64,000 nucleotides of DNA from Halichondria panicea. Its lineage: Eukaryota > Porifera > Demospongiae > Suberitida > Halichondriidae. A program made the position numbers and the translations under genes. Shown here in pieces: positions 2,383 through 60,941 of the stretch (within the stretch, counting starts at the first letter, position 1; each line of letters opens with the position of its first letter). The DNA is taken from positions 12,820,632 through 12,884,631 of the forward strand of contig NC_087377.1 of the NCBI RefSeq assembly GCF_963675165.1, read 5' to 3'. The notes beneath the pieces were generated by a model. That model saw nothing but the letters and a program-made list of their open reading frames with translations, was not told the DNA's origin and did no database searches.

Positions 2383-4566
2383 TCACAGTGCTAATGGTCC
2401 ATACGCCTGGTTAGTACTCAGCTCAATCTCCTCTTTAGGTGACACCTCCTCATAAACAGGACCAGCGGGTGCAATGGGTCCATCGTTAGCTTTACCTTCA
2501 GCTGCCGGGGAGTACACTGCCTTCTTACGACAGCAAAAGTGGGTCACTAGAAGCCGAGCGAGGAGTTCAATGACGATAGTCACAATGAAAGTGATGACCA
2601 CACTGATAGATATTGCTGCACCAGTAGATAGGGGGGCGGCAGGAGAAACTATGAGATGGAAGAGTATGTATTAGATCCCACTCAAGCAAGGAACTATCAG
2701 CTATACTATGGTTACCAGTATAACTGTAAAACTGATTGCTTGATTATACTGATGTATATAATGTTGCTAGCTTTAGAAACGTGGGATCGATCATAGTGCA
2801 TTTGGTATGTTATACTATGGTAAAGCCCTTCACCTTCATTTATTCTAAGTACACACATGATGGTGTCAGGCTCAGTGCTCCAGACTCCAGCATTAGTGCA
2901 AGTGATGTTGTTGGGTCCAGTCAGTGAGAGTCTATTGTCACACTGGTAAGTCAGCACTGTTCCCTCCAACACTGTCTCGTTCAACAACTCATAGTCCACT
3001 ATAGCACCATTGCAGGGCTCAGCAGGTAGAGCGCAGTTAACTAATAGAAACGGTCAGACAGTGATTCAGTGTACACGACTTATTATAATTATGTTTGCAC
3101 CCAGTGAAAAGTAAATCCTTGATAATCCATGCAATAGAATTGTGTATACAAGAAGTCCTTCATTTTGCGTACATTCACAGAAAATAATAAACAGCTACAT
3201 TTTACCTGGTCTCTCCCTGCACACCAAGCTCCCAGGATTCTCCACCCACTCTCCCCTACCCCCCACATCAGTGCATGTACTGGTCCTCACATCAGGGGGT
3301 AACAGTGCCTCATCACAGCGGTAGGTGACCTCTGAACCCAGTAAGAAGGGTGGTGTCCCAACACGGATGTCCACACTGCCTCTAGACGGTGCAGCAGGAG
3401 AACCACAAGCAACTTGGGGAGGTCAGCCATAATAATTATAGTAATAATACAATTAATTAACGCACTTGTAATCAGACTGGTACAGTCAAAGGTCCCAGGG
3501 TCAGGAGACCACCCACTACTGCCACAGGTTGAGGTTATCACTTCATTGTCTCCACTGCAAGTGAAGGTGAGCATGGATCCACCAATAGTGACTGGAGGTG
3601 TGTTGGTGATGGTCACACCAGCAGCAGTAGACGGTGTGGGGCACACCACTGTGTATTACAGAGAAGGAGTACATGACTATCTGTGTGTTGTATGTACAAC
3701 CACGAAATAGCTTACTCAAATCCACAATTAAACTCTCTTGACTCATTCCAGCACAGTTGACAGCTCTGATGGTTACATTGTAGGGAGTGTTGTAGGAGAT
3801 GGTGATCTGTGCTGAGGTGGTCTCCACGGTTACTGGTGACCCGGAGAGTGATGTTGGAGAGATGGTGAGGACATAGCTGACAGACACACCACCAGTAGAG
3901 GAGGGGGAGTCCCAGTCCAAAGTGATATTAGAGGAGCTGAGTTGATTTAAAGTGGATGATACTCTTGGGTTGAGGAGAGGTGATGGTGGATCTGTTTTTT
4001 GAGAAATACTACCCCTGTTAGCATTAGTTTTTGACAATTCTGAGATTTTGCTGTATTACTAATTATACTCACCAGCCACGCTGATGGGTATTGGACCTTC
4101 TCCTGCTCCTCCTATCACTAGACAGTTCACTATAGTTCCACCCAGCGCTGTTACCATGGTGAGGGTGGTGAGTGTCGATATGATCATGCCTCCATTGTGT
4201 CCGGAGTAATCAGCCCGGAACATGAACCCATCAGAGCCAATCTCCCTTGTTACAATACTGTTACTCACTAACCCAGATGCACTAGGCACATTATTCAGTC
4301 CAGGTGGTGGGGCTACTACCCATTGAAGGTCCACACCCATAGTACCAGGCAGAGTGCAGGTAAAGGTAACAGTGTCATCAGGACAGGCCACAGTGGGAAT
4401 GGATGTCAGAGTAGCTGAAACAAATAAAATATTAGATCTAGGAGTACATAATAATTACAGCTATAGATATTTTAGGCTATAGTGATGGTTCCAGTGAACA
4501 CAGATAGACCTTACCTGCAGCAAGAGTAAACAACAGAATGATGATAATAACCGCTTTTATTTGCAT
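2383..4566 (-). CDS. Receptor A: Ig-FN3-Sushi x3 membrane receptor with ITAM-like tail
   Basis: Seven exons join into one frame of 510 aa: 4515-4566, 4073-4414, 3716-3991, 3466-3648, 3206-3412, 2834-3040, 2383-2648. Exon 1 is a signal peptide (MQIKAVIIIILLFTLAA). Exon 2 is Ig-like (cysteines in ACPDD, FTCTLP and VNCLV). Exon 3 is FN3 (LDWDSPSSTGG, PYNVTIRAVNCAG). Exons 4, 5 and 6 each hold a four-cysteine Sushi domain. Exon 7 holds a short stalk, a membrane helix beginning near ISISVVITFIV, a basic stop (CCRKK) and a tail with GPVYEEVSP and QAYGPLAL. All internal junctions are phase 1 with GT-AG sites; the exon 4 donor (3465) is the least certain. By analogy with other receptors, it probably binds an extracellular ligand and signals through phosphotyrosine. 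It is the longest family 1 member here. Ligand and true function are unknown. Confidence 0.82.
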
Positions 4567-5625
4567 TGTTGGAGAGTTTTGCTCAAACAAAGATCAATCT
4601 ATACAGGAAGTCAGAAAAAACCACAGTTATGTGTAATAATAATCGATGTGTTTTTAACAGCTGCTATCAATTATGGATCTTACTATAATGGATCTTACTA
4701 TAATGGTGAAAGTAAAGTGTTGACAATAATTATAAAGATGAATACATTATGGATCTAATGTTTACACATTTGTGATTATATTCTAAGGATATAAGACAGA
4801 GCTGTTTGGACTGTCTTATCAAAGTGTTGCCGAGAATCTTCAAATTGACCCTAAAGTGTTTGTAGAATAGTGCAATCAATTTTTGACATGATGCTGTCTA
4901 TAGATTTTAACTTTATGGTTGACCACAGATAACCATATGATTTTGTGGGATATTTGCTGAAAAACCCAATATCATAGTAAGGTGTAGCCTCGATTCCAGG
5001 CTGCTCTTCAGGGGAGGCTAGTGAAGGAGGCTAAGTAAGGTCCTATACATCTAGTTTTTTTGGCCTCTATATAGGGTATGATCATGCACCTTCATTTTCT
5101 CGGTTATCCATTAAGTGACTAAATGCAAGATATGAAGTGCTCATTGACTTTTTTTACATGTTTGTGAGAAGCTAGCTAGCTAGCTATAGACATACTAAAA
5201 GGCAGGTGTTAATTAATTGTGTATTGCTAGTCTAGCTGAGCACAATTAAATGTCATTTACCTGAGAGGTTTCATGTGGCTGAGATTGTTCTAAACTTATA
5301 CTTCCTGAATAAAGTTGTGCTTAGAGCTGAGTCTGAGCCCGAATACTGGGATTGATACTAGAACTTAAGTCTTGGTCTTCTTTATTTGAGGTAGCTAGCT
5401 AGCTGAGACTAGCTGAGACAAAGCCAAAGTGAAACGCTTCATGGTGCCATCTCTAGCTCTGATGATTGATTTGCAGCCACGTGCATGAAAAGATGGGCAT
5501 GGCTGCTTGATTTCAATTATAGGAGAGCCCTGCCCAATTTTCTCAGCAGCTCCTGGGGGGGTTTCTGGGCAACCAGGAAACAATGGTAGCTACGCCCCTG
5601 CAGATACGTATACAGGATATGTATA
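4567..5625. other. Upstream region of receptor A, no gene seen
   Basis: This stretch holds AT-rich sequence, GCTAGCTAGC runs near 5172 and 5392, and half of a GGCCTGG-type foldback at about 4987-5040 (TAGCCTCGATTCCAGG). The promoter of receptor A must lie here, but no TATA box or other element stands out. Confidence 0.4.
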
Positions 5626-6721: not shown

Positions 6722-8513
6722 CTAAAATATAAATGATATACAAGGTAAAACATGCATGCTATAACTGATAATATAATACTGGCTGGAACGTATACATAAT
6801 TGTAGTGCAACAGGTCCGTACGCCTGATTAGTATTCAGTTTAATCTCCTCTTTGGGTGACACCTCCTCATAAACAGGACCAACTGGTGCAGTGGGTCCGA
6901 CATTAGCTTTTTCTTTAGTTGCTGAAGAGTACACTGCCTTCTTACGAGAGCAAAGGTGCATCACTAGGAGTCCAGTGAGGAATCCAAGAATTGCAGCAAC
7001 AATGAAAGTTATGATAAAACTTATAGCGATAGCTTCACCAGTAGATAGGATGGTGACTGTAGAACAACCTGTAAAACAGATAGTCATAATTATTCATTAT
7101 GGAATAAATAACTCCTAAACCTTCAGTCCTAAGCACACACTTGATTGCTTCAGGCTCAATGCTCCAGAGTCCAGCATTTGTACAAGTGATGTTGTTGGGT
7201 CCAGTCAATGAGAATTCATTGTCACACTGGTAAGTCAGCACTGTTCCCTTCAACACTGTCTCGTTCAACCTATCATAGTCCACTATACCATGCACCGTTG
7301 CACAGCTCAGGAGGAAGAGAGCAGTGCACTATAAAATATGGAAGGCCAAAAAGTACGATCTCAATCAGCGCTGCACATGCACGAGCATTCAACTAATTGG
7401 CTACTGAATACTATAGGAATCGTGGAAGGAGACTATATAGTCTCATGATATACATGCACCTTACCTGAGGGACAGTCATATGTGGTGGGGTCATGTGACC
7501 ATCGTCCATTACTCTCACAGGTTGCTAGTACCATCTGTCCATTGCAAGTGAAACTAAGAGTTGATCCTACTAGTGCAGGCAGTGGAGGAGCACCATTGAT
7601 GGTCACTTGAGTGGCAGGTGTTGGGTTAGAGGGGCAGGTAACTGCAGTAGACAAATTAAAGTTAGGGTTAAGATTAGTATACCAAATAATTATACCAATA
7701 GCAGGAATCATTGGCATCACATCACTGCTCGATCCATCACAGTTGACAGCTCTGATGGTCACATTGTATGGAGTGTTATAGGAGATGATTATCTGTGCCG
7801 AGGTGGTCTCCACAGTGACTGGTGACCCAGAGAGAGGTGTTGGGGAGATGATGAGGACATACCTGACAGACACACCACCAGTAGAGGAGGGAGAATCCCA
7901 TAATACAGTGACAATGTGGACGAACTGATTTGATTTTGAGCGGCAGACAGTCTTGGGTTGAATGGAGCGGTTGGAGCAACTGCAAGTTCAAGATTGTCTC
8001 AACAGAATATTGGGTAAGTACTTACCAGCAACTATGACTGTCTGTTGTAACTCTATTACACCACCATCAGTAACAGTACTAGTACAGGTGACATTGCTAC
8101 CATCCAGTACAGACACTTCACTGAGGTTGATGAGAGTGGAAGTCAGAGTTCCACCATCATTGCTCACAAGAACAGCCTCAAATATGATCATGCCTGATCC
8201 AAATGTGTCCCTTCGACCAACAATAGAACCAAGGAAGATTGTACTTTGTACTGACATCAACCCAGACTCTGCTGGAGGATCCACTTGCCATCTCACTGTA
8301 GTACCAGTCACAGAGCATGTGAACAGACTGCCTCTCCAGGACACGCCACACTCGTGTTGGACACTAAAGAGGCCTCTGTTTAAATGGAACATTCAATCAC
8401 ATGTAGCACAATCCTTACTCTTATTTTATACCTCCTGTCTGAGAGTTAATCATAAATGCTATTAACAGAAGACACTTGATCTGAATTGAATTGTGTAAGA
8501 AGAAAATTGACAT
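6722..8513 (-). pseudogene. Receptor B: family 1 receptor with several frame breaks
   Basis: Exons: 8432-8513 (signal peptide, MSIFFLHNSIQIKCLLLIAF), 8026-8375 (Ig-like), 7696-7979 (FN3), 7465-7641 (Sushi), 7121-7328 (Sushi), 6722-7068 (transmembrane and tail). Splice sites match those of paralogue C. Compared with C, the Ig exon has lost one base soon after its first cysteine (near 8328), the FN3 exon has two extra bases (284 against 282 nt), and the second Sushi exon has four extra bases at about 7290 (208 against 204 nt; unit CATG or TGCA). The normal stop after AYGPVAL is changed from TAA to CAA, adding about 24 codons. The tail keeps GPVYEEVSP and AYGPV. This is probably a recent pseudogene; several independent assembly errors are a less likely alternative. 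Confidence 0.8.
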
Positions 8514-10980: not shown

Positions 10981-10984
10981 TGAG

Positions 10985-11533: not shown

Positions 11534-12946
11534 TCACAATCCTACTGGTCCATACGCATGGTTAGTGTTTAGTTCAATCTCCTCTTTGGGTGACACCTCC
11601 TCATAAACAGGACCAACTGGTGCAGTGGATCTTGTGTTAGCTTGTCCATCAGCTGCCGGGGAGTACATTGCTTTCTTACGATGGCAAAAATGGGTCACTA
11701 GGAGCCGAGCGAGGAATCCAATGATTGTGAACAGAACTGCAGTGAAAACCACACTAATGGAAACAGCAATGCCAAGGTCAGTGCCAGTAAATAGAGCGAG
11801 AGATGGAGCTGTACAGTTCATTAGAAGAGCTAGATCTGGAGTTATATATTACGTGAATTAAATTATGTATAATTATAACCAACAGCTGATTCGTAAAACT
11901 CACCAGTTGTTGGAGGAGCCTGGGTTAGTTTCAATGGACCACACTCGATAGTTTCAGCGTTTGGGCTCCACATCAGTGTACTGTCATCACATGTCACCAT
12001 CATCACGGGAGACACATACCCTGCATCACACTGGATGGTTACTGTTGATCCTGGCAATCTGCTGGAAACTGGTCCAACCATTCCATTTGTGGGGTTTGTC
12101 AGCACAGGACAGCCACCTGAGAGAAAGAAGTGAAATGTGACAGTGAGTGTGTGTTGATTTTCATGAATGCTGCCAGTTATTTAACGATGTTATCAACTCA
12201 CCAATCCTGAAGTTGTACTCAACAGTTGTACTATTCCCAGCACAGTTGGTAGCCACAACACTGACAGTGTAGTCCACATTGTATTGAGCAGTCACAGTGA
12301 CAGAGGTGGATGTGAGGACAGTAGCAGAGAGCTGGGCCGGAGTTGAGATGGTCACTGTGTAGGTGAGGTCATCTCTACCACCAGTCTCAGAAGGAGGGTT
12401 CCAACCAACAGTCACATTGATTTCATTGGCAGAGCTGCTCAGAATTGAGTGTCTTATGGTGGAAGGTGGCCCTGGTAGATCTATATACAACTTATTGTGA
12501 GTGGATGCGGAACTTATTGCAACTCACCCACCAATTGGATGATTGAAGATCCTATGGTTGTTCGAGACGGAGTAGGCACAAACACAAACCCCTCACAGGA
12601 CACAGTGATCCCATTCTTCGCTATTCTTGACAGAGTAGATGTTAATGCGGTGTCATTGGCTGCAATCAGTGTTACAATGTAACCTGACTGCATTACTGGT
12701 ACATTGAGACCCAAGGTGGAGAGGATACTGATGCTAGTACTATCTGATGGCACCCATCTCAAAGAATCTCCAGGAGCAGTGCAGGTGAAAGTGACTGTTT
12801 CCATTGGACATGGTCTCTCCACACTCACTGAATATTGGGCTTTATGAAAAGTGTTTAATGTCCTATATAATTTTATAATGGAATTCTTTCTTACCAGTGC
12901 TGAAGCCAGTCAGAAAGCAAGTCAGGATAACTTGAAAGAGCTTCAT
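11534..12946 (-). CDS. Receptor D: Ig-FN3-Sushi membrane receptor with ITAM-like tail
   Basis: Five exons in one frame: 12895-12946, 12528-12827, 12202-12480, 11904-12116, 11534-11835, about 381 aa. The last exon could instead begin at 11808 (372 aa); both acceptors keep phase 1. The start at 12946 gives a good signal peptide (MKLFQVILTCFLTGFST). The Ig-like exon has cysteines in RPCPME, FTCTAP and VSCEG. The FN3 exon has GWNPPSETGG and VVATNCAG. The single Sushi exon is canonical (GCPVLTNP, IQCDAGY, VTCDD, IECGP). The last exon has a helix followed by THFCHRKKAMYSP, then GPVYEEVSP and HAYGPVGL. It is the most divergent and shortest family 1 member, and it lies outside the duplicated B/C blocks. 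The function is probably cell-surface recognition with phosphotyrosine signalling. Confidence 0.84.
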
Positions 12947-14846: not shown

Positions 14847-16502
14847 TTATAGTGCAAATGGTCCGTATGCCTGGTTAGTATTCAGTTCAATCTCCTCTTT
14901 GGGTGACACCTCCTCATAAACAGGGCCAGCTAGTAAAGTGGGTCCTATATTAGCTTGTTCTTTAGTTGCTGGAGAGTATACTGCCTTCTTATGAGAGCAC
15001 AAGTGCATCACTAGGAGTCCAGTGAGGAATCCAAGAATGGTAGCAACAAGGAAAGTTATGACAAAACTTATAGCGATAGCTTCACCAGTAGATGGATGGC
15101 GACTGTAGAACCTGTAAAACAGATAGTGATAATTATTCATTATGGAATAAATACCTTCAGTCCTAAGTACACACTTGATTGCCTCAGGCTCAATGCTCCA
15201 GAGTCCAGCATTAGTACACATGATGTTGTTGGGTCCAGTCAATGAGAATTCATTGTCACACTGGTAAGTCAGCACTGTTCCCTTCAACACTGTCTCGTTC
15301 AACCTATCATAGTCCACTATACCACCATTGCACAGCTCAGGAGGAAGAGAGCAGTGCACTATAAAATATGGAAGGCCAAAAGTACCATCTCAATCAGCGC
15401 TGCACATGCACGAGTATATTCAACTAATTTGGCTGACATGCACCTTACCTGAGGGACAGTCATATGTGGTGGGGTCATGTGACCATCGTCCATTACTCTC
15501 ACAGGTTGCTAGTAGCGTCTGTCCATTGCAAGTGAAACTAAGAGTTGATCCTACTAGTGCAGGCAGTGGAGGAGCACCATTGATGGTCACTCGGTTGGCA
15601 GGTGTTGGGTTAGAGGGGCATGTAACTGCAGTAGACAAAAGTTAGGGTTAAGATTAGTACCAAATAATTATACCAATAGCAGGAATCATTGGCATCACAT
15701 CACTGCTCGATCCAACACAGTTGACAGCTCTGATGGTCACATTGTAGGGAGTGTTGTAGGAGACAGTTATCTGTGCCGAGGTGGTCTCCATGGTGACTGG
15801 TGACCCAGAGAGGGGTGTTGGGGAGATGATGAGGACATAGCTGATAGACACACCACCAGTAGAGGAGGGAGGGTCCCAGTCCAGAGTGATATTCGAAAAG
15901 TGAATTTGGTTTTGAGTGACAGAGAGTATTGGGTTGAGTGGAGATGTTGGAGCAACTGCAAGTTCAATTAGTCTCAACAGAATAATTGGAAATAATCTTA
16001 CTAGCAACTGTGACTGTCTGTTGTGACTCTATTGGCATAGCACCACCACTAACAGTAACAGTACAGGTGACATTGATATCATCCAGTACAGACACTTCAC
16101 TGAGGTTGATGAGAGTGGACGTTAGAGTTCCACCATCACTGCTCACAAGAACAGCCTCAAACATGAGCACATCGGAACCAACTGTGGTCCTTCGACCAAC
16201 TTGTGAGGGAAAGAATGCATCAGTTTGTACTACTGACAGCAAGCTAGATGCTGTTGGAGGATTCACCGCCCATCTCAATGAGGTACCAGGCATGGAGCAT
16301 GTGAAGAGAACTGCCTCTCCAGGACACGCCACACTTGTGTTGTACACTAGAGAGGCCTCTGTTGAAATGAAAAACATGCTCATTGACAATCACTCATGAA
16401 ACACAATCCTTGCTGGCATTCATAATTAATTTATATACCTCCTATCTGAGAGTTAATCATCACTGCTAACAGAAAATACTTGATCACCAACAAGTTCACC
16501 AT
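14847..16502 (-). CDS. Receptor C: Ig-FN3-Sushi x2 membrane receptor, last intron possibly retained
   Basis: Exons: 16439-16502 (signal peptide MVNLLVIKYFLLAVMINSQ), 16002-16358 (Ig-like; VACPGE, FTCSMP, VTCTV), 15674-15955 (FN3), 15449-15625 (Sushi), 15155-15358 (Sushi), then transmembrane and tail to 14847. The expected last intron is 15112-15154 (43 nt, GT to AG). Removing it shifts the frame, because one base is missing just after the acceptor compared with receptor B. Keeping the 43 nt leaves an open frame from 15358 to the stop at 14847, giving about 463 aa. The tail has GPVYEEVSP and QAYGPFAL. It is the closest paralogue of B and the better preserved of the pair. Whether the intron is spliced decides if the protein reaches the membrane. 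Confidence 0.75.
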
Positions 16503-18399: not shown

Positions 18400-20018
18400 G
18401 TGTGTGTATTCCAGCTATAACTGCTCAACGGTTGCAATGCGACGAAAACTAACAGCTTCTATAGGCTTCTAGCCACGTTCTCTTGGATTTTGATTCGTGG
18501 ATTAGCAAACTAAAGCTTCTTTCTCGAGTTATGGTTAGTTTGACTCACATTGAAGGCTGTTGCAGTCTTTTCAGAATCTTTCATAGCATCATCTGTCCGC
18601 ACAAACTTTCTATTCAACATATGAGTTAGCCTTGCACTAAAGCGCTAGCTTTTTGTTAGCTACAATACTCAGAAAATATCTGTTAAAACAGCTAGCTAGC
18701 AGTAGCCATTTGTGAAATTGATCTCTTTGGACACACCCTTTAATTAGTGGATGTAATGCGCATGCGCGCTCATTCCCCATGTGTGAGAAAATAAGGATCC
18801 AGATCCAGATCCTCCTGGCAGAATCATCTTTGTCTTGAGGGCCTGGTAAGCCACAAAACATATAACAATATAGATAACAATATGCATGTACACAGGTCTT
18901 TTCTTCTTAGATATTATATACACTGAACTACAGATCCTGGAAGAATCAATTTTCTTCTTTCTTGAGGTCCTGGTAAGCCACATAATACAATAAATAACAA
19001 CAATAGATGCATGTAAATAAGTCTTTTCTTCTCAGTGACTTTATATAGATAAGCTAACTTTAATATAAAATTCATTATAGATAACACTCTAATACTTTAA
19101 GCGAAAGCAAAAACATGGCGAGAGGCATTAGCACAGCGCCAGCTTGAACACTAGTTATGTCATGAAGACAATTAAATATATTAATTAATATGCATGAACG
19201 TCACACATATAATTATATGCATGGTAATTCCGCCCCAGGTCACAATCTTCACGAACATAAGACACTACTGCATCTCTGTATTGGAGCTTGTAAACCTATA
19301 TTATTATTAGAGAGATCATTAATTTATAGAAATACAAAGTATACCCCTGGGATGAGGTAATTTGTGCAGATTGTGACATGTATTTGCCTAGCCTGTTGAA
19401 TTTGGCAATAGGTTGCAATCTTCAAAACACAATAGTGAGCTCATAAGAGGTTTGCAAGACCCAACAGGATATAATGCACATGCACTGCTTCCTCAGCTGC
19501 TCCTCCGTCATTTCGATCATTCGTGCTGTAGCTATACCCAAGTACTTTGGTTTACATCACTGACGGAACGCAACATTATTATTATTATTCAAGCTTTACA
19601 GTCACAGTTTGAGGTGATGATATAAAAGAAATAGCTTGGAAAATTGTGACTGACAGACGTCATGCTGCCCCTGAGTATACTTAATGGGGACAAAATTAAG
19701 ATCGAGATGGATAAATTGATAACACTAGCTATAGTTCTGGTAAGTTCTTATGCAGTTCGCGATACATCTGTTACAGGGACTGAATTTGAGGACCGAAGTG
19801 GTTTTCTGTGAAGTGCATGACGAGTTAGGTGATACGAAGTAGGTAGATCTAGGTAGTGGGCAGATCAAGCATTCCAAAGCTTTACTATAATTATGGTTGA
19901 AATAGAAGTGACGGGTGGTATTGTAGTGCGATAACCAAATATAATTATCTACAATTACAATAAAATAATTATACCCTGTATATACAGTAGACATAATTAT
20001 CATCAAATTCATTCGTAC
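18400..20018. other. Intergenic, includes a diverged tandem pair, no gene recognised
   Basis: Two diverged copies of a unit of about 130 bp lie at roughly 18795-18925 and 18926-19050. Each contains CAGATCCT, then CTTGAGG(G/T)CCTGGTAAGCC, then GTCTTTTCTTCT, so each looks like an exon end followed by a splice donor. I could not place a protein on them. The rest to 20018 shows nothing; in particular there is no FN3 or transmembrane exon to complete receptor E. Confidence 0.4.
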
Positions 20019-38983: not shown

Positions 38984-39260
38984 GTGCAACGCTGCATGAT
39001 AAACACAACTACAGTGGAACCCCTGTATAACGGACACCTTTGGGGAACAATGTTTTGGCCTTTATACAGAGGTGGCCTTTGTTGAGGGGTTGTTTTGTAC
39101 ATGCACGAACTGTTCATTTGGGACCTGGGTGCCTAGCCGTTATACATAGCAGCTGGCCTTTATTCGGAGGTGATTGTTAACAGAGGTTCCACTGTATTCA
39201 TTATGCATTAATTCTCAAATGAAAAACATGTACAATTAATGTATGCATGTATACGCATGC

Positions 39261-40814: not shown

Positions 40815-43751
40815 ATGAGTATGCCAAGTTGCAGCAAGGTAAAAGATATATACTTCTGCATGTATAAATATAAATACTCTCATGAATAATGATTGCTTCA
40901 CCCTGCATTGTAGATTATACAATTGGTCCTGACTTCATGGGTACTGCTAGCAAATCAACTGGGTAAGTGTTTATAGTATAGTACACCTGCTAGGATGCCC
41001 AATTCATAAATGCTGCTGGTAGATCTACTGAGAAAAATATTACTTATCCAGAAGCAGAGCAAATCCCTTCGGCTTTCATTGTAATTGTCTATAATAATTG
41101 TCCAGATGCCGTAAATGAACATTCTGTTGATGAAAGTGTGCAAACAGTTTGCCCTGGAGAGTTGGTTTCTCTAATTTGCACTCATGACAATGTTGCTGGT
41201 CAACAAACTCACTGGATTGTCAGTGGCTCACAGCCTTGTGATGAATATGTAAGCCACTTCACTGATTCGACTGAAGACATGTGTGGTTCGTTCATTATTA
41301 CGAGGATAGGTAATACAGTTTCTACATTATATTCAACTATTCAAATACCCGCCACTGAGGCACTGGACGGTACTTTGATTAAGTGTTTTTCTGGAGGTCT
41401 TACATCGTCCCCACAAGTTGGCAACACCACACTCAATGTGATAAGTCAGTGAAACAACAAGATTTCATGCTAGCCACACCATATCAACTTTATATATATA
41501 CTTTCAACTGTTACAGATCTAACTGTGTCTACTGTAACTGACTGGATGGCTAACCTGAGAACCAACAGTTTATGTCCTGTTCTGGAGTGGGACCCAGTGG
41601 ACGCACCATACCAGAGATGTGTCATCGGCTACACTATCAACCTGAATGGAACAGTGTACAATACCACAAACACATCTCTATCATTAGCTGGAGAGAGCCT
41701 CTCTTACTGTGAGACTCACACAGTGACTGTGACACCACTCACACTCAATGGACTCTTATCGCCAGATACCTCAAATATCACAGTGATCAATAGAGGTGCC
41801 TGTAATGCGACAGCATTATTGTTCAATTTGTGTGTCACATTATTCAGATTTGGGGACTCCAGCATTATCTACCTCCTTCACCATCCATAATGAAGTGCTA
41901 CTGAAGCTGCAAATAATGGTCCAGGTATGTAGCTATTACATGGCTATGAGTGCCACAAGCTGTTTATTGGCCCGGTAGAAGATTGTGGTCAAGGGCCTCT
42001 AGCTTGAGAGCATTATCTACTACAAGGACCAGTACTGCTTGTCAGTGGCGGATCCCGACATGCAGGTTCCATGGGTTCCATAGAATCAACACACTGGAGA
42101 TCAACTTACTAGCTATATAGCTAGCAACTAAGCTTGCATGAATGATCGTGATCTGTATAATAGAGTTACGCAATTTACATGGGGTCTCTAATGCGCATGC
42201 TCATTGCTTAGGAAAAGTGACGACCTTTTTTTTTTTGTAAATTTTAGCTGTTTTGTAACTCCCCTCTCAAATTATTAGATACGTCACAGCTGGTTGCATT
42301 TTGACCTCTGAGATCAAATAAAACAGGGTGCCAATATCTCCCATAATTATGGCATGCACAGTTCAGGTGGTGAACTGTGCCAGTAAGGCGCATATGTCAC
42401 AACTACTTGTGGCATGCACGAATTGCCATGTAATAACTACTTCATTGCCTTGAAAACCAGCATAAAAACCACTTGTTGCATATAGATATGACAGTTCTCT
42501 ACTGATTTTGGTGGCTGGAATTACGTAATAACCGCATAGAAACCAGCATATGCTGCATAGCAAACTTCACAGGGACCACAAAAACTTACAAGAACGTGTC
42601 CCTGTATAAAGTAGTAGTTGACAGTTTGGGTGTGAGGGGGTTTCTCTCTCTAGAGGGTGATTTTATGCGTCAATAGGCAACGTAAATATTTAATATTAAT
42701 TTTGTTGCCATATAATTATTATTGTCCTCTCACAACAGGAAATTTCAATTGATGTTGCACCCATTCGAATGTTCGGATACATAACGAGTGGAGAAAATTG
42801 TGTTCCTACCAAATCATTTAATGGAAGTTCAGTTGCAATCGATTTCTCAGACCAATCTCCTGGATATGCTTACACAGTGTGTGTGATGTTCAGAAACAAG
42901 GAATGCTCTGTGTCTGCATTCAATTCCATTACTGTGACTGGTAAAATACATAATGCTGGCATGTCATTAAATTTATGATTTCGTATCTTTCAGTTCCAGC
43001 TACAATGATTACCGTACAAGAAGTTACACCATCGGATACTAACTACACAGTTAGTTTGTCCCTCCCCTTCACCGGCTACCCTCCCAGTGACCTGTTCATT
43101 GTCTCCACCCTCTCTCCCCCTCACTCGGACCCAAACACCCTCACCTTCCCCTCCAATACCAACCAAGTCATGGTGACCTTCACTGAACTCACTGCTGGAG
43201 TCCTCTACACCTACACCATTAGAGTTGTTCTGGCCAGCAACAAATCAAATGACGTTGTATCTCCAGTCACTGGAGAATTCAGTTTGACAACATTAGGAGG
43301 TATTACATGGAGGCGAATAACTGGTAGATAGTGAAACAATTGCAAATAGTATTGTTTACTTCAACAGTATAATGAATAAGCTAGACGTGTTTACTAGTAG
43401 TTAGCCCGCTATGATATATACTCATTACTGTAACTCATGCATTAATTCTCAAATCAAAAACATGTATAATACACTCATGCAGAATCTGTGCGGTCCCTCT
43501 CTATTGGTGAAGCAGTGGCAGTCAGTGTGGCAGCTACATTTATTATTTCCATAGCAGTTGGAATCCTGTTGGGGATGTCTGTAATGTACTGCATTATGTA
43601 TTACAGGAATAGGGGACGCTACGCAGTAAGACAGTGTCAGGAGGAAAGCATTCAACCCACTGTGCCAAGTGGTCCTGTTTATGAAGAGGTTACTCCTATC
43701 CAAGATGGAATTAAGCTGAAACTGAATGAAGCATACGGACCGTTATCATAG
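40815..43751 (+). CDS. Receptor H: intact family 2 receptor (Ig, three FN3-like, TM, ITAM-like tail)
   Basis: Eight exons, one open frame of 514 aa: 40815-40838, 40914-40962, 41106-41444, 41517-41795, 41848-41924, 42739-42940, 42994-43299, 43483-43751. The signal peptide (MSMPSCSK / IIQLVLTSWVLLANQ) is split by a phase 0 intron. The Ig-like domain has CPGELVSLICTHDN and IKCFSGG. FN3-like 1 has CPVLEWDPVDAPYQRC. FN3-like 2 is split by a phase 0 intron (MFGYITSGENC, FSDQSPGYAYTVCVMF). FN3 3 has LPFTGYPPSDLFIVSTLSPP. The last exon has a helix from about AVAVSVAATFIISIAVG, a CIMYYRNRG stop and a tail with GPVYEEVTP and NEAYGPLS. Intron 5 (41925-42738) is enlarged by repeat DNA. This is the cleanest reference copy with K. 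Probably a cell-surface recognition receptor acting through phosphotyrosine; ligand unknown. Confidence 0.87.
41925..42738. repeat. Repeat insertion in intron 5 of receptor H
   Basis: The equivalent intron is about 50-60 nt in F, G, J and K; here it is 814 nt. Its start (GGCTATGAGTGCCACAAGCT) also appears at 37047 and, as GAGTGTCACAAGCTGTTTATT, at 32080, 45381 and 57981. About 42405-42560 resembles, partly inverted, 31050-31330 (ACGAATTGCCATGTAATAAC). Composite of dispersed repeats; no coding content. Confidence 0.6.
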
Positions 43752-46184: not shown

Positions 46185-49050
46185 TTATAATGGTCCGTAT
46201 GCTTCATTCGGTTTCAGCTCAATTTGTTCTTGGATAGGAGTAACTTCTTCGTAAACAGGACCACTTGGTACAGTGGGTTGAATGCTTTCTTCTTGTCGCT
46301 GTCTTACTGCGTAGTGTCCCCTATTCCTGTAGTACATAATGCAGTACATTAGAGACATCCCCAGCAAGAGTCCAATCGCTATGGAAATAGTGAATGTAGC
46401 TGCCATAATGACTGCCACTGCTTCACCAGTAGAGAGGGACTGCACAGATTCTGCATGAGTGTTGATTGTACATGTTTTTCATTTGAGCATGAGTTACAGT
46501 GTAATGAATATATCATAGTAGGCTAACTACGAGTAAAAACACGTAGCTTATTCACTATACTGTTGAAGTAAACAATATTATTTGCGATTGTTTCACTATC
46601 TACCAGTTATTCGCCTCCATGTATAGCATATACCTCCTAATACATGTAGAGCCAATATGAAATTTCCAGTGACTGGAAAAACGACATCATTTGATTGGTT
46701 GCTGGCCAGAATAATTCTAATTGTGTAGGTGTAGAAGACTCCAGCAGTGATGTCGATGAAGGTCACTGTGATTTGGTTGGTTGTGTACGGGAAGGGGAGG
46801 GTAATTGGGTCCGAATGAGGGGGGGAGAGGGTGGAGACAATGAGCAGGTCACGGGAGGGTAGTCGATGAAGGGGAGGGACAAACGTATCGTATAACTAGA
46901 ACCAGATGGCCTAACTTCTTGTACGGTAATCATCGTAGCTGGAACTGAAAGATACAAAATCATGAATTATGCCAGCATATGCAGTTTTACCAGTCACAGT
47001 AGTGGAATTGATTGCAGAGCATTCCTTGTTTCTGAACATCACACACACTGTGTAAGTATCTCCAGGAGATTGGTCTGAGAAATCGATTGCAACTGAACTT
47101 CCATTAAATGATGTGGTAGGAACACAATTTTCTCCGCTCGTTATGTATCCGAACATTCGAATGGGTGCAGTATCAATCGAAATTTCCTGGAATCAAAAAT
47201 CGTTAATTTACACAGAAAACAACAAAAGCAATAACACTACCTGGAATATTATTTGGAGCTTCAGAGCTTTATTTTGAATTATGAAGGAACTAGATAATGC
47301 TGGAGTCCCCAAGTCTAAATTTGACACCACATTATTGAGCTCAAGTATGCAGTCACAGTACACACATACCTGGATTGATCACAGTGATATTTGAGGTGTC
47401 TGGAGATAAGGGTACATTCAGTGTGAGTGGTGTCACAGTCACTGCTTGAGTCTCACAGTAAGAGAGGCTCTCTCCAGCTAATGATAGAGATGTGTTTGTG
47501 GTATTGTACACTGTTCCATTCAGGTTGATAGTGTAGCCAGTGATACATCTCTGGTAAGGTGCATCCAGAGGGTCCCACTCCAGAACAGGACACAAACTGT
47601 TGGATCTTAAATTAGCCATCCAGTCAGTCACGAAAGACACATTTAGATCTGTAGCAATTCAAAAGGTTATAGCTCACTTAAAAATCTTGTTGCATTACAT
47701 ATATACCTATCACATTAACTGTGGTGTTGCCAATTCGTGGAGACGATGATAGACTACCCGCAAAGCACTCAATTACAGTACCGTCCAATGCTTCAGTGGC
47801 AGCTGTCCGAATGGTGGAACTCACCACAGGGCCAGTATCGTCACTGATCATGATGATGGTGAATGGAGTTTGACCACAAGGTTGTTCAGAGCCTGAATTT
47901 CCAACGTGGCTCACTATAACACTGCAAGAAACAGTTCCTCTAGTCGTCCATCGAGTTACTTCACCAGCAATATCGTCATGAGTACAAGTTAGAGAGACTA
48001 TCTCTCCTAGGCAAACTGTCAGTACTACATCTCCTTCATCAGTACTGTTTGCCAGAAATGCTGAACTTCCATTCACAGCATCTATAGTATTATAGTATAT
48101 ATACACAATGCAATAATAGATACCTTGGCTGGTGATACTGAATTATCATAAATTATTCATTGAATACTCCAAACTATCCATTGTGGCAACAATTATGCAG
48201 TTTGTCTCTTATTATATTGTTCATTTATTCTCCTGTAAAATCATTCCCTATGAATTCTCTACTGCCCCAAAAATGTAGCAGTTTTGTCTCAGTATTAATA
48301 TTAAAGCAGCATTTGCATCTTACCCAGTTGATTTGCTAGCAGTGACCATGAAGCCAGGACCAGCAAGAGGATAATCTATGTTGTGAGAGTATAAAATAAT
48401 TCAGACAACTATAGGTCTCTCGTATTAGATAGAGTAGAAGAAGGTATTATGAGACGGAACCAATTATGAGACAGCTGTTTAAAACAGGAGTGCTTCAGCT
48501 ATTCTGTCTGCAGTTAATAGCAGCTAGCACTATCACTCTAGTATTTTTTCCAAAAGAAATTTGGAGTTGTATGCTTGTGTTGACAGAGATACCACAATAG
48601 TGTGTTTAAGTACAGAATTTAATTGGAAAAAACATTTTTAATTGACCAAATTTAAGTGGGTGCCAAATGTTTGTAGTAAAATTCACTTGGTATCAGTTAA
48701 AACAGGAGTAACTGTTTTTATAGGCAAAATAATCACTATATTTTAATATCAGAAAGTTCCAAATATGTTAGAACAGCCAATTAGGGTTAAAATTAATTAA
48801 TTGCAATGGTGTCTCGTAAATACCCCCCCTGTCTCATAATACCCGAATCACTTTGAACACTACAATGCTAGCATTAGCTGCAAACAAAGCACTGTCACTC
48901 TTTTTTTTTGCTTACATGCAAAGCATATTGACCATAAAAGTTAGTGAACAGGCTATTTAGCTCCCTCAAGATTACTGCAAGACAGGGGGGTCAGAAACAT
49001 TTAGATGTCTCGTAATACCCCCTTGTACTCTATACCTTGAAGCTTGGCAT
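46185..49050 (-). CDS. Receptor J: family 2 receptor with one frame break in FN3 3
   Basis: Exons: 48324-48375 (second signal-peptide exon, LVLASWSLLANQ), 47707-48081 (Ig-like, CLGEIVSLTCTHDD, IECFAGS), 47370-47648 (FN3-like 1), 47241-47314 with 46991-47186 (FN3-like 2), 46634-46944 (FN3 3), 46185-46450 (transmembrane, tail with GPVYEEVTP and NEAYGPL). The first exon is least certain; ATGCCAAGCTTCAAG followed by GT at 49036-49050 fits the paralogues but would leave a long intron. One base is missing near 46860 within PPSDL, so the frame stops before the membrane helix. The Ig domain differs clearly from G, H and K while the tail is nearly identical. Either a soluble form, a young pseudogene, or a sequencing error. 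Confidence 0.72.
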
Positions 49051-49114
49051 ACTCACTCACTGCTATTAAACTTCTATAGCTGAATGCCATCAGGCGCTAG
49101 GCATGCAGCTCAGC

Positions 49115-50858: not shown

Positions 50859-52189
50859 GTTAATTAACTACTCAATCTATGGGCAAACCCACTGCCAATC
50901 CTATGTAAAACCTACTGGTTTTACTAATAATGCCATAACAGAGCCTATTAGGGAACACTGATCGCTCAATTTGTTGCGGACATAATTATGTTAGCCAATA
51001 TGGTCTGCACGGACCAGAGTGCTGAAAGTTGCCAAATGGTATTGTCTACAGTTCTAGTCATGCAGGCACGCATCACACTAAAGTAAACAGTAATTACACT
51101 AAACAAGCCACGCACTCACCAAACACAGTGGTGTAGTGATGAAGAGGGAAACATTAGTGAGCATCTGCACTCTTTCATCACACAGGGCAAAATTGCACAA
51201 TGGTTCTTCCCTGTTCACATACAGTGCATCCAGTCTAAAGAGTAGAATACCAAAAATGTGTGAGTAGTTGTACTTAAATGTAAATGATTGGAACATTTCT
51301 AAGAAAATCTGCTGATACCATTGTGTAGGCAAATGAATAAGCTACAACATATCCAAAATTGTTTCCATAACAACATAAGGTGGTGGGTTTGTGGTGATTA
51401 ATATAACAGTACCCAATTGTTATAGTGGGTAATCGGTTAGGGAGAGAAAAGGCCAACGGTTTCCGGCTAAGGTTTGGAACTTTGTCACAACATCTATAGA
51501 TAGTTTGGCTATCTTATGAAAGATTCGATGTTACTTAAAATAATATCTACACATCCTCCACAGTGCTCAAAATTGCTAGTTTTTAGTGCCTTTTCGGTTA
51601 AGGAGAGATTTAAAGAAAATCTCACGGCTAAGGTCTAAAATTACAAAGAGTAAGCTTGAATAAATTGTCTAACTTAAAAATTTTTCCAGAAATACTTTAG
51701 TTCCAGAGATAATTGATGTTACATACATTACGTTACAAGAAGAAAGCATTCAACCCACTGTGCCAAGTGGTCCTGTTTACAAAGAAGTTACTCCTATCCA
51801 AGAACGAATTGAACTGAAACCGAATGAAGCATACAGACCATTATAAAACTGTACTAGTCAGGAAACCTAAACTCTTTGTATTAATTATTTAAACAATATT
51901 GCAACCCTGCACAGTATACGTGTAACCCCTCATAGCGGTGTACAAAACAACCATTCAACAAAAGATTCCATTGTATATATAAGGGGAGAGGGTTGGATAC
52001 ACCAGTGCAGGATTTTCAATACAAGGTTTTGTTGTATTGCTGATGCAAAGAATAACTAACACAAAATATGCATTGTAGAGAGTATTAGAGAGAAACATAC
52101 GCAGCTGTACAACACAGCTGTAAGACTCACCCGACCGCGATGATCTCCTCGAAGTTCCTCTCTGACACAAAAGTTATACACTATTGCTC
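50859..52189. other. Spacer with a tail-exon relic
   Basis: Apart from the receptor tail relic at 51735-51846 I see no gene. About 51960-52010 (GGGGAGAGGGTTGGATACAC) recurs at 56545, and about 52140-52250 recurs at 56690-56760 and 37600-37690. Confidence 0.4.
51735..51846 (+). pseudogene. Relic of a family 2 tail exon with altered tyrosine motifs
   Basis: The text matches the 3' half of the family 2 transmembrane/tail exon through to the stop. The helix part is missing. The first motif reads GPVYKEVTP (Glu to Lys) and the second NEAYRPL (Gly to Arg). No other exons are adjacent. It is a solitary relic. Confidence 0.75.
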
Positions 52190-54150
52190 TTAAGGTCGGC
52201 TGTACATGTAGTATATCTGTAGAGGATGTGAACATTTCAATACACCTCATAAGAACTGCTGTACATTATGGACTGGGACTAACACCAAAAATAAATTTAT
52301 AAGAGAGCCTTCAACTTATATAATTGCTGCTGTTTACTGCATGTTGTCAGTAATAAATACTATAACAGTGACACCACAATAAAATGCTCTGTTTATTATT
52401 TATGAGCTAGCTAAGGACTCTCTGCATGTGAATAAGGACACCTCTTATAGTATAATCAGGACACTTAACGCTTAGAAATAGAAGCACACACATAGAAATT
52501 ACTAGAATCAACTTGTTGCATTTTATGCAGCAACACTACTATTAGACAACAACCAAGCTACACACAACCTCTCCATTAATTGATACGCCCACTGCATTAG
52601 GTACGACCGAGTATACCGTATTATAATTATTATAGCTGGTATAATTAGCAAAGGCAAAACATTCGTGATTGAGCAATATTTACTCACTTTGTGGATAATA
52701 TTTTTGTGAGGTTGCTGCTTGCACTGCAGGTAAAGGTATAGACAAGGTCGCTTCATTTGTGGGTAAAAAGTAATAATTATATTTGTGCAGAGTTCCAACC
52801 ACGAAAACCATGAATATTTTGTTTCCCGGAAATGACCAGCAAAAATATACAGTACCTCTCTGAGGTGAACATTAGGTTTGTTGGTTTCAAGGGCCAATGC
52901 ATTGATTATAATAGCCTATAAGGATGAAAAATGTATACTGTATAGAAGTGGTGCATGCATAGTTTTCATGCAAATGTCACCAAAAAATTATCATCTGAAT
53001 CTATATAGTCACACATTTTGCAATATTATTGTAAAAACTATACAGTACTTTTTTGCCAAATTGTGACGTGCCTGCGTGCTAAGAACATAATAACAGGTAT
53101 TTAGTTTTGATGTGATAGCAGAAATCGTTTAATGTATGAATGTATAGTTTAATACCAAGCAGTTATTGTAGGAAAACATGAGCGTAATTTAACAATGTGT
53201 TGAGAGATTCAACACTAACTAATCTTTTGCTGAGTATAATAATAGTCATTAACATGCCTGGTGTGGACCAATCAAGGAGAGATCAATAATAACTAAGCAT
53301 CATTCGGCTGACAAACATTTTCACGAGTTTTAACGATAATATAAATAACATCTCAGATAATCCTGAGTGCGGTATAGGGGCAAGATTTTGAGCATAAACA
53401 ATGAACTTCCCAGATAAAATGACCGTAAGTTAATATCTGCATAGTAATGAAAAACAGAAGCCTGGCTGCCTATCGTGGTTGCCATATAAACTGGCCATGC
53501 TCTATATAATACAGCCAGGTTAACAAGCAGTAAAGTCTCCATAATTATAGTATGTGTTACAGGTCACCTCTTCATTGCAGCCACTGTTAGTGTGCCCTAG
53601 GGTTGCATGGTGGCCGCTAAATTCATATTGACACAAGGATTGTGAAGCAGGTGCAACGCTGCATGAGAAACACAACTACAGTGGAACCCATCAGGCTATA
53701 ACGGACACCTTTGGGGAACAATGTTTGGCCTTATACAGAGGTGGCCTTTGTTGAGGGGTTGTTTTGAACACGAACTGTTCATTTGGGACCTGGGTGCCTG
53801 GCCGTTATATAGCAGCTGGCCTTTATTCGGAGGTGGTTGTTAACAGAGGTTCCACTGTATTCATTATGCATTAATTCTCAAATGAAAAACATGTACAATT
53901 AATGTACCGTATAGCGCGAAATTTTCGAGGCACTTATATTTCGTGGATTGGCCTCTAAAAGCCATTTCGTTGCACAATGTTCGCGGAATGACTGCTTACC
54001 GGAAGCCACGCCTTTAGATCTTGCACGTTATAGCAGGTAAAGAACGATTTTTGTGGACTTAATTTTCGTGTAGGATTGCTAACCCACGAAATCCACGAAA
54101 ATTAAGCCCCTCGAAAATTTCGCGCTATACGGTATATGCATGTACGCATG
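52190..54150. repeat. Duplicate of 37640-39260
   Basis: Collinear, including GGCTGTACATGTAGTATATC near 52196 and TTCAAGGGCCAATGCATTGA near 52886. The last part precedes a transmembrane exon in both copies. Differences include the foldback present only at 38910 and the 230-bp element present only at 53905. Confidence 0.75.
53905..54134. mobile_element. 230-bp element with perfect 26-bp terminal inverted repeats
   Basis: Both ends read TACCGTATAGCGCGAAATTT and onward into TCGAGG. The paralogous locus at 39237-39250 lacks the insertion (AATTAATGTATGCATG), which dates it after the local duplication. The insertion site is a TA-rich position; a TA target duplication is possible but an extra TA makes it ambiguous. 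No coding content. Confidence 0.85.
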
Positions 54151-54382
54151 CAGAATCTGTGCGGTCCCTCTCTACTGGTGAAGCAGTGGCAGTCAGTGTG
54201 GCAGCTACATTCACTATTTTCATAGCGATTGGACTCTTGCTGGGGATGTCTCTAACATACTGCATTATGTGTTACAGGAATAGGGGACGCTATACAGTAA
54301 GACAGCGACAGGAAGAAAGCATTCAACCCACTGTTGTGCCCAAGTGGTCCTGAAACCGAATGAAGCATACGGACCATTATAA
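54151..54382 (+). pseudogene. Solitary family 2 transmembrane/tail exon with a deletion
   Basis: After an acceptor (GCATGCAG), the exon from 54152 encodes the helix (SVAATFTIFIAIGLLLGMS), CIMCYRNRG and QEESIQPT, then loses about 50 bases that held GPVYEEV, and resumes at the NEAYGPL end. Extra bases near 54340 shift the frame. No ectodomain exons lie upstream within the duplicated block. Confidence 0.78.
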
Positions 54383-58790: not shown

Positions 58791-60941
58791 TTATAATGGT
58801 CCGTATGCTTCATTCGGTTTCAGCTCAATTTGTTCTTGGATAGGAGTAACTTCTTCGTAAACAGGACCACTTGGCACAGTGGGTTGAATGCTTTCTTCTT
58901 GTCGCTGTCTTACTGGGTAGTGTCCCCTATTCCTGTAGTACATAATGCAGTACATTAGAGACACCCCCAACAAGAGTCCAATCGCTATGGAAATAGTGAA
59001 TGTAGCTGCCACACTGACTGCCATTGCTTCACCAGTAGAGAGGAACTGCACAGATTCTGCATGAGTGTTGATTGTACATGTTTTTCATTTGAGCATGAGT
59101 TACAGTATAATGAGTACATCATAGCGGGCTAACTACTAGTAAACACGTAGCTTATTCACTATACTGTTGAAGTAAACAATACTATTTGCGATTGTTTCAC
59201 TATCTACCAGTTATTTGCCTCCATGTATAGCATATACCTCCTAATACATGTAGAGCCAATATGAAATTTCCAGTGACTGGAAAAACGACATCATTTGATT
59301 GGTTGCTGGCCAGAATAATTCTAATTGTGTAGGTGTAGAAGACTCCAGCAGTGATGTCGATGAAGCTCACTGTGATTTGGTTAGTTGTGTACGGGAAGGG
59401 GAGGGTGATTGGGTCAGAGTGAGGGGGAGAGAGGGTGGAGACAATGAGCAGGTCACTGGGAGGGTAGCCGGTGAAGGGGAGGGACAAACGGACCATGTAA
59501 CTAGAGCCAGATGGCCTAACTTCTTGTATGGTGATCATTGTAGCTGGAACTAAAAGATACGAATGAATTTGATGATAATTATGCCAGCATATGCATTTTA
59601 CCAGTCACAGTAATGGAATTGATTGCAGACACAGAGCATTCATTGTTTCTGAACATCATACACACTGTGTAAGCATCTCCAGGAGATTGGTCTGAGAAAT
59701 CGATTACAACTGAACTCCCATTAAATGATGTGGTAGGAACACAATCCTCTCCACTCGATATGTATCCAAACATTCGAATGAGTGCAATATCAATCGAAAT
59801 ATCCTGAAGACAAAGTTACAATTTTAGCGAGATAATAATGCAGAGGCATGCACAAATCATACCTGAACTATTACTTTGAGCTTCAAAACTTCCTTTTGGA
59901 ATCTGAAGGAGGTGGATATAGCTGGAGTCACCAAGTCTAAATATGACACCCACAATTAATGGCATTAAGATAAGTATGCTGTCATTACAAACATACTTGG
60001 ATTGATCACAGTGATATTTAAGGTGTCTAAAGATAACAGTCCATTGAGTGTGAGTGGTTTCACAGTCACTGTCTGAGTCTCACAGTAAGGGAGGCTCTCT
60101 CCAGCTAATGATAGAGATGTGTTTGTGGTATTGTACACTGTTTCATTCAGGGTGATGCTGTAGCCAGTGACACATCTCTGGTAAGGTTGGTCCAATGGGT
60201 CCCAGTCCAGAACAGACCCTAGAGCATCAGTTCTCAGATTTGCTATCCAGGAAGTTACAGACGACATATTTAGATCTGTAAAAAGTAAACATTTTGTGAT
60301 TGTGAGTATGATGATCTTGTTGATTATTTACCTATCACATTAAGTGTGGTGTTGCCAACTTGTGGAGACAAAGTACCACCACCAGCAAAGCATTCAACCA
60401 GAGTACCGTCCAGTGCCTCAGTCACAGGTATATGAACGATGGAACTCACTGTGGAGCCAGTATTGTCACTGATCATGATGATGGTGAACGGACTCAGATC
60501 ACAAGGCTGTTCTGAGCCTGAATCAAAATCGTGGCTCACTATAACATTGCAGGATATAGTTCCACTAATTGCCCATCGAGTTTGTGCACCCTTTATATGA
60601 CTACAAGTTAGACAGGCTAACTCTCCAGGACAAACTGTTAACATAGTTTCTTCTTCAGTAATGTTTGATAGAAATGCTGAATTTCCATATACAGCATCTA
60701 GACAATAGCACACATGGACTCATTATATGCATTGCATTGTCTTATTTCTCTGTAAATCTCTATAAATTAATATTAATTGTAGATCTATAGTCTAGCAGTT
60801 TGTCTATCTGCTCACCCAGTTGATTTGCTAGCAGTGTCCATGAAACCAGGACCAACAGGATAATCTATACGTATATAGGCAGTAAAAACTATACAGGTAC
60901 CACGTTTTCTCTTGTCTTACCTTGCAACTTGGTATACTCAT
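58791..60941 (-). CDS. Receptor K: intact family 2 receptor (Ig, three FN3-like, TM, ITAM-like tail)
   Basis: Eight exons in one open frame of 522 aa: 60921-60941, 60816-60864, 60332-60697, 59997-60275, 59863-59936, 59602-59803, 59238-59549, 58791-59056. Signal peptide MSIPSCK / IILLVLVSWTLLANQ, split by a phase 0 intron. Ig-like: CPGELACLTCSH, VECFAGG. FN3-like 1: SVLDWDPLDQPYQRC, where one cysteine kept in G, H and J is serine. FN3-like 2: MFGYISSGEDC, FSDQSPGDAYTVCMMF. FN3 3: LPFTGYPPSDLLIVSTLSPP. The last exon has a helix from about AMAVSVAATFTISIAIG, then CIMYYRNRG, GPVYEEVTP and NEAYGPL. Exon lengths and phases match H apart from whole-codon differences, which supports purifying selection on the frame. 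Role probably cell-surface recognition and phosphotyrosine signalling. Confidence 0.87.

Follow-up and report, generated by a model that had tools for sequence, protein, structure and literature searches.

A large array of predicted receptor genes in the sponge Halichondria panicea shares a conserved tail with two tyrosines

Predicted receptor genes of the window

The stretch of DNA analysed here (hereafter the window) comprises 64,000 nucleotides of the 131-Mb genome of the sponge Halichondria panicea, and corresponds to C1:12820632-12884631 (contig NC_087377.1, positions 12,820,632-12,884,631). It carries two families of predicted single-pass receptor genes whose products combine immunoglobulin-like (Ig-like) domains with FN3 or FN3-like domains and, in family 1, with Sushi domains. 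A single exon encoding a transmembrane (TM) helix and a short tail with two tyrosines completes each intact gene. Family 1 is also termed type A and family 2 type B; a third kind of gene, described below, is termed type C. The tyrosine of the PVYEEV motif is designated Y1 and the tyrosine of the AYG motif Y2. An initial annotation of this DNA, made from the sequence alone, had proposed a receptor system built on such a tail, and its outer coordinates (2383 and 60941) are the ends of the two genes for which complete GT-AG models were obtained. The features, in window positions, are as follows.

2383-4566, minus strand: family 1 gene 1, with signal peptide, Ig-like, FN3, three Sushi-type exons and TM-tail exon, 506 amino acids (complete GT-AG model; FN3 and Sushi recognised by Pfam)
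2383-2463, minus strand: tail of family 1 gene 1, GPVYEEVSPKEEIELSTNQAYGPLAL followed by a stop, 13-residue gap (motif pattern and gene model)
6803-8392, minus strand: family 1 gene 2, with Ig-like, FN3, Sushi and TM-tail exons, tail at 6803-6880 (usual stop lost, frame extends about 26 residues)
11537-12909, minus strand: family 1 gene 3, with Ig-like, FN3, Sushi and TM-tail exons, tail at 11537-11614 (motif and profiles)
14850-16389, minus strand: family 1 gene 4, with Ig-like, FN3, Sushi and TM-tail exons, tail at 14850-14927 (frame from acceptor to helix looks shifted)
19972-21119, minus strand: truncated family 2 copy, with Ig-like and FN3-like exons and no TM-tail exon seen (exon clusters)
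26839-28726, plus strand: family 2 gene 1, with V-type Ig-like, FN3-like and TM-tail exons, tail at 28652-28726 (frameshift in first FN3-like exon)
32762-34729, minus strand: family 2 gene 2, tail at 32762-32836 (motif and profiles)
40994-43748, plus strand: family 2 gene 3, tail at 43671-43745 (motif and profiles)
46188-48142, minus strand: family 2 gene 4, tail at 46188-46262 (last FN3-like exon with frameshift)
51673-51843, plus strand: degraded family 2 tail without helix, VYKEV and AYRPL (motif pattern)
54063-54380, plus strand: family 2 TM-tail exon with a frameshift within the tail (motif pattern)
58791-60941, minus strand: family 2 gene 5, with split signal peptide, V-type Ig-like, FN3-like and TM-tail exons, 522 amino acids (complete GT-AG model)
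58791-58868, minus strand: tail of family 2 gene 5, GPVYEEVTPIQEQIELKPNEAYGPL followed by a stop, 14-residue gap (motif pattern and gene model)

One membrane-and-tail exon in both families

Nine copies of the pattern GPVYEEV[ST]P followed by N-x-AYGP are intact in the window, of which four belong to family 1 (minus strand) and five to family 2. Two further family 2 copies carry a degraded tail, one with VYKEV and AYRPL near 51.7 kb and one with a tail frameshift near 54.3 kb. The same tyrosine tail is thus present in both families, as the initial annotation had held, and family 1 tails have a gap of 13 residues between YEEV and YG and family 2 tails one of 14, as had also been reported there.

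A further claim, that the two families differ in their membrane helices, is contradicted by the comparison of these exons. Specifically, the helix-tail exons of families 1 and 2 align along their full length, and a family 2 TM-tail exon used as query in a protein search of the genome retrieved family 1 exons at E values of 3e-16 to 3e-11. Furthermore, the helix part alone outscored 2000 of 2000 shuffles in each of five comparisons. Because helix and tail align as one exon and the helix beats all shuffles, the sharing of the tail inside the window is, judging by these alignments, the inheritance of one membrane-and-tail exon and not the placement of one tail on two unrelated helices.

A clustered array on one chromosome

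The genome contains 219 distinct tail places within approximately 3.7 Mb of C1 (11.25-14.93 Mb), at a median spacing of 6.3 kb, and one more on C7. These places were pooled from a pair of protein searches, of which the 150 best among 296 candidates and the 150 best among 305 were used, and from a DNA pattern for GPVYEEV that has 218 matches in the genome, 100 of them listed, and none for a reversed control. The total of 219 includes partial and broken copies as well as three places of type C, and the true number of tails is perhaps higher, given that the best rows of longer lists were used, or lower, given that duplication in the assembly and real duplication look the same. The clustered receptor system with a common tyrosine tail that had been proposed from the window alone is therefore found again, at far larger scale, along this stretch of C1.

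Ectodomains were surveyed at 71 loci, made up of the four family 1 genes of the window and 67 sampled stretches: every third (64) of the 191 places outside the window and the type B regions, two chosen by hand, and the C7 copy. Two of the sampled loci, L003 and L004, proved to be of type C. Ig, FN3 and Sushi domains all lie upstream of the tail in 43 of the 71 loci (L003 and L004 among the 43). The other 28 exhibit Ig and Sushi (6), Ig and FN3 (1), FN3 and Sushi (7), Sushi only (12) or none of these (2), and some of the incomplete ectodomains extend past the 3-kb cut or hold an exon that the profiles miss.

Several loci of the array have unusual arrangements. L017 and L048 encode identical TM-tail proteins, and identical TM-tail or tail proteins also occur in the far-apart stretches L003/L004 and L009/L056; such identity between distant receptor stretches reflects either a segmental duplication of recent date or haplotypes duplicated in the assembly. 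L060 and L063 have TM-tail exons without a recognisable ectodomain upstream, and share an upstream open reading frame (ORF) that by eye resembles a mobile element. L073 and L078 carry a second TM-tail exon, again without a recognisable ectodomain, about 2.5 kb after another TM-tail exon. At L061, L062 and L065 (C1 14.08-14.49 Mb) the tails stand behind a common exon of unrecognised type followed by Sushi; this exon has about 180 residues in two of the three, and the one that was scanned gave no Pfam Ig match.

The tail motif behind unrelated helices and ectodomains

The tails of L003 and L004 have an 18-residue gap and stand behind a different helix. A search of the genome with this type C tail gave 37 matches at E values up to 0.1, 28 of which have E below 0.001. 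The matches lie on C1 near 9.9, 11.3, 12.9, 13.85, 14.6-14.75, 16.5 and 17.6 Mb and on C6 near 1.1 Mb. Five of them (L090, L091, L092, L093 and L094) were fetched. L090 encodes FN3 and Sushi domains by Pfam, plus an Ig-like stretch without a Pfam match. In L092, an IgGFc_binding domain (Pfam, E 1.3e-51) and Sushi lie upstream of the tail on the same strand, linked to it by position rather than by a splice model. L091 looks like L092 (by appearance, not by Pfam scan), and at 2790-3044 of its coding strand the YEEV block occurs twice ahead of the second site. L093 consists of the tail alone, adjoining repeats, and L094 is a weak match (E 0.007) with YDEI replacing YEEV.

The helices of L003, L090, L091 and L094 were compared with those of types A and B, and none of the four exhibits a likeness to either beyond that of shuffles. 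The helix of L094 is also without clear relation to the other three type C helices. From these sequences, the occurrence of the same tail motif behind unrelated helices and ectodomains appears well supported. The expectation of the initial annotation that many diverse ectodomains would be found on one tail is borne out by type C, with proof coming from beyond the window.

Protein-level constraint on the family 1 tail

For type A, 66 of the 69 tail exons (65 distinct) were codon-aligned; L035, L039 and L060, which have intact tails but a short or out-of-frame upstream part, were left out. Within the TM-tail exon of family 1, the pooled NG86 ratio of nonsynonymous to synonymous divergence (dN/dS) reaches 0.91 in the juxtamembrane part, compared with 0.54 on the helix side and 0.148 in the tail. 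When 60 random subsets of 25 of these exons were drawn, the value for the tail was never above 0.23 and that for the juxtamembrane part never below 0.67, and a codon model on the tree (IQ-TREE) gave 0.785 for the helix, 0.904 for the juxtamembrane part and 0.190 for the tail. Because median dS is alike in the juxtamembrane part (0.289) and the tail (0.296) while dN/dS differs, the family 1 tail is constrained at the protein level.

Individual residues exhibit the same pattern. In family 1, Y1, Y2 and the asparagine at position -3 of Y2 are each invariant in all 65 distinct sequences; a juxtamembrane tyrosine, used for internal comparison, is retained in 57 of 64 and replaced by F in three, H in two and C in two. 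This constraint is consistent, for family 1, with the common tyrosine output module that had been proposed. In family 2, both tyrosines and the asparagine at -3 of Y2 are present in 16 of 16 copies. The GPVYEEV block (dN 0, dS 0.21) is likewise unchanged in all 16, and the rest of the tail is freer.

Two tyrosine docking sites and their possible partners

In vertebrate receptors and adaptors that carry immunoreceptor tyrosine-based activation motifs (ITAMs), paired Y-x-x-hydrophobic sites are found in a short tail. The initial annotation had called the sponge tail ITAM-like, and two Y-x-x-hydrophobic sites are indeed present: the residue at +3 of Y1 is V in 63 sequences and M in two, in place of a strict L or I, and V, L or F follows at +3 of Y2 in 64 of 65. 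The spacing weakens this description. Over 76 loci, the gap between YEEV and YGP is 13 residues in 65, 14 in six, 15 in two, 18 in two and 9 in one, such that it falls outside the range of 6-12 given in the initial annotation in 75 of the 76 and is itself variable. The array thus differs from vertebrate ITAMs in its spacing, and also in an additional conserved block that precedes Y2. An ITAM proper whose spacing has been stretched, and which would engage both SH2 domains of a Syk-type kinase together, could account for the paired sites and would find a counterpart in a SYK-like SH2-SH2-kinase locus of the genome (L089, see below). However, the gap reaches 18 in type C, the Y1 block is repeated in L091, and a conserved asparagine at -3 of the second tyrosine is not a feature of ITAMs, and we consider this explanation quite improbable. 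The variable gap and the doubled Y1 block instead favour two separate docking sites over an ITAM read as one unit.

The sequence YEEV, with acidic residues at +1 and +2 and an aliphatic residue at +3, follows the pattern of Src-type SH2 ligands. Y1 fits the corresponding pYEEI pattern, with E at +1 in 65 sequences, E at +2 in 64 and V at +3 in 63 (n = 65). In immunoreceptor tyrosine-based inhibitory motifs (ITIMs), S, I, V or L stands at -2 of the tyrosine and I, V or L at +3. The tail departs from this pattern, as position -2 of Y1 is P in 65 of 65, and position -2 of Y2 is Q in 64 and H in one (family 1) or E in 15 and D in one (16 family 2 copies).

Ligands of phosphotyrosine-binding (PTB) domains have the form NPxY or NxxY, with N at -3 and, in the classic form, P at -2. 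Family 1 has the N in 65 of 65 sequences, but Q or H in place of the P. Among representative tails of all types, most sequences follow the consensus [DE]I[EQ][LV]xxNxAYGx[VL] at the second site. This site resembles the NxxY sites that PTB domains bind, and it fits YxxPhi sorting signals as well. The latter fit raises the alternative that the two tyrosines would act in sorting or uptake, as endocytosis motifs (YxxPhi/NxxY) of receptors for scavenging or adhesion. YxxPhi fits both tyrosines and NxxY fits Y2, hydrophobic residues interchange at +3 of Y2 (V 39, L 24, F 1 and S 1 in the 65 family 1 sequences; L or I in family 2), and the IgGFc-binding and Sushi ectodomains could serve capture. Nevertheless, conservation across types extends to the acidic pair after Y1 (both E in 64 of 65) and to the I-E/Q-L/V stretch ahead of Y2, which is more than a bare YxxPhi signal requires, and we regard this alternative as unlikely.

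The genome has 67 SH2 matches. L089 combines a pair of SH2 stretches with the beginning of a kinase (first residues only, below the Pfam cut-off), and the top match of its second SH2 in PDB is SYK (E 1e-39). L087 combines two SH2 stretches with a tyrosine phosphatase, and L088 combines two with a kinase and with ankyrin-like repeats (recognised by eye). We take the domain orders of L089, L087 and L088 to match those of Syk, SHP and Shark respectively.

We propose that the window is one section of a very extensive array of single-pass receptors that have varied Ig/FN3/Sushi ectodomains and a common conserved tail of approximately 25 residues with two separate tyrosine docking sites. Once phosphorylated, Y1 (in PVYEEV) would become a ligand of Src-type SH2 domains, and Y2 would serve as an NxxY/YxxPhi-type site. 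When a ligand is bound outside, a Src-type kinase would phosphorylate the tail, and SH2 proteins and perhaps PTB proteins would dock on it, such that hundreds of heads would lead to one output. We assign a probability of roughly 0.55 to this reading of a large receptor array whose shared tail feeds one output through two separate docking sites. We infer phosphorylation, docking partners, ligand recognition and a possible immune or allorecognition role from the sequences. A broader interpretation can be offered only tentatively and is on balance doubtful: that an early animal has here a recognition system of many heads and one output, in which about 250 genome places share an undescribed two-site phosphotyrosine module behind unrelated helices and ectodomains.

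Probable recombination, homogenized 3′ ends and broken copies

The copies of family 2 differ in age along their length. Median dS is 0.74 for the Ig exon, 0.12-0.29 with no even trend for the FN3-like exons and 0.12 for helix and tail, and intron divergence declines from 5′ to 3′ (0.43, 0.26, 0.16, 0.14, 0.13). Individual pairs are mosaic: the 34-kb copy and L072 have an Ig dS of 0.04 and a dS of 0.33 in the last FN3-like exon, and the 34-kb and 47-kb copies have an Ig dS of 0.54 and a tail dS of 0.00. Exon distances are only weakly correlated in this family (Spearman -0.08 to 0.47). The simplest reading of these comparisons would be recombination together with homogenized 3′ ends. Pooled ectodomain dN/dS is 0.35-0.53 for type B exons and 0.48-0.62 for type A exons, the type A run having left out 24 loci under a strict filter. 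The system had been described at the outset as diversifying. That copies differ holds true, by way of duplication, recombination and homogenized 3′ ends, whereas positive selection does not find support in pooled values of 0.35-0.62.

Several of our results weigh against the proposed common output module. Pooled dN/dS over type A and type B exons gives no indication of positive selection on the ectodomains. The synonymous divergence of the 3′ ends is low, and therefore part of the sameness of the tails is homogenization. In family 2 (n = 16), dN/dS is 0.61 for the helix side, 0.24 for the juxtamembrane part and 0.54 for the tail, in a test that has small power because divergence is low, and five alike copies of the 16 (L069, L070, L073, L077 and L078) have AYRPI at Y2 instead of AYGPL. 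Apart from the two complete models, four of the seven remaining window genes have a frame problem outside the tail motif (at 6.8, 14.9, 27 and 46 kb), and a stop falls within 13 of the 37 type C rows, perhaps partly the tail's own stop. Finally, a kinome paper, in the part available, dates the origin of Syk to chordates (PMC8662651). Because of this date, and because its kinase is barely seen, the Syk label of L089 is provisional.

Some of these points would be expected if the likeness of the tails came from recent duplication and gene conversion only, with no functional constraint. The 3′ ends of family 2 are younger than its Ig exons, its intron divergence falls to 0.13 from 0.43, and its tail dN/dS is no lower than that of its neighbours. 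Such an account is very unlikely in view of family 1, where tail dN is about sixfold below that of the adjoining stretch at like dS, and of type C, which keeps the motif behind an unrelated helix. The array could also be mostly a graveyard of non-expressed copies, as the frame problems of four among the nine window genes, the two degraded tails, the orphan TM-tail exons of L060 and L063 and the stops in type C rows might indicate. However, internal stops occur in only 6 of 150 and 3 of 150 best-scoring rows of the two protein searches, in lists of best rows that under-count broken copies, and two window genes yield complete models, which makes a graveyard highly improbable.

Comparison with known receptor systems

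Known systems are compared here as they are described in excerpts of the papers cited. The fester/FcoR genes of the fuhc locus of Botryllus are clustered like the sponge array and encode type I receptors that combine Ig and Sushi domains with Y-x-x-I/L/V motifs in the tail (PMC12065747), and in uncle fester the 3′ exons of fester are repeated behind a non-homologous 5′ half (PMC12065747). FcoR has 53 loci, which encode a variable Ig, Sushi and two C2 Ig domains and vary in their outputs (ITIM, hemITAM, core motif) (PMC12065747). In contrast, the array in H. panicea has FN3 between Ig and Sushi, about 200 places and one tail; the FcoR order of V Ig, Sushi, two C2 Ig and TM is replaced by Ig, FN3, Sushi and TM. 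The Alr proteins of Hydractinia, likened by description and not by sequence, are also Ig-type receptors of an invertebrate recognition complex, and candidate allorecognition genes are reported to carry ITAMs as well as ITIMs (PMC12065747). The Alr family has 41 members (PMC11999971), approximately fivefold fewer loci than the array, and the descriptions of Alr covered mention no comparable shared tail. By these descriptions, we assign the array to neither fester/FcoR nor Alr.

Large sponge gene sets that combine FN3, Ig or Sushi are also known from the SRCR expansions of Aplysina, Dysidea and Stylissa (PMC6208332, PMC4772301). These differ from the array in being SRCR-based, and no common tail or such cluster is mentioned in the accounts covered. 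Titles and abstract openings of a partial open-access literature collection held no description of this array or tail. No relative was found in a prokaryote genome set or in IMG/VR, a result that is uninformative on animals.

The mechanisms of invertebrate allorecognition are regarded as wholly mysterious in the portion seen of one review (PMC12065747). If the broader interpretation of many heads and one output is true, the array would be a candidate for the receptors, long sought in sponges, that tell self from non-self or detect microbes. Because hundreds of receptors carry one short tail, its function could be tested for the whole set with one phospho-antibody, one peptide pull-down or one tail reporter. 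Moreover, the spacing of the tail and the conserved block before Y2 would test whether ITAM-type signalling arose from looser two-site tails.

Ectodomain labels and neighbouring features

The domain labels given to the two families in the initial annotation stand in part. Among ten family 1 exons scanned, one FN3 and three Sushi exons passed the Pfam cut-off and no Ig stretch did so; the first Sushi-type exon of family 1 gene 1 was recognised by our own profile only. None of ten family 2 exons scanned reached a Pfam cut-off, such that the FN3 and Sushi labels of family 1 are upheld by Pfam while its Ig label and all family 2 labels lie below the cut-offs. For the family 2 Ig exon, PDB matches are available: its profile found 85 chains at E up to 1 (best E 0.0015), and the best 60 of the 85 are all antibody or T-cell-receptor chains, which suggests that this exon encodes a putative V-type Ig domain. 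The first FN3-like exon of family 2 had no PDB match, and its label is weak for that reason. The structures predicted for these two exons are of low confidence (pLDDT 42.6 for the Ig exon and 61.3 for the first FN3-like exon).

Further dense groups of Pfam Ig matches lie outside the array, at C4:5.66-5.72, C4:4.37-4.43, C9:6.69-6.70, C6:2.57-2.62 and C1:17.7-18.0 Mb. Within the window, related ORFs are repeated on the minus strand at 38677-39132 and 53333-53839; the two that were scanned are both without a Pfam match, and they perhaps belong to a mobile element. Elsewhere in the genome, seven of eight retrieved C1-peptidase loci were read for silicatein, and one was compared with the PDB; none is clearly a silicatein. 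L084 (C9:2570213-2570782) encodes a cathepsin-L-like sequence with Ser at the position of the expected catalytic Cys. Its closest PDB matches are cathepsins, and silicatein is the last among the 60 matches listed.

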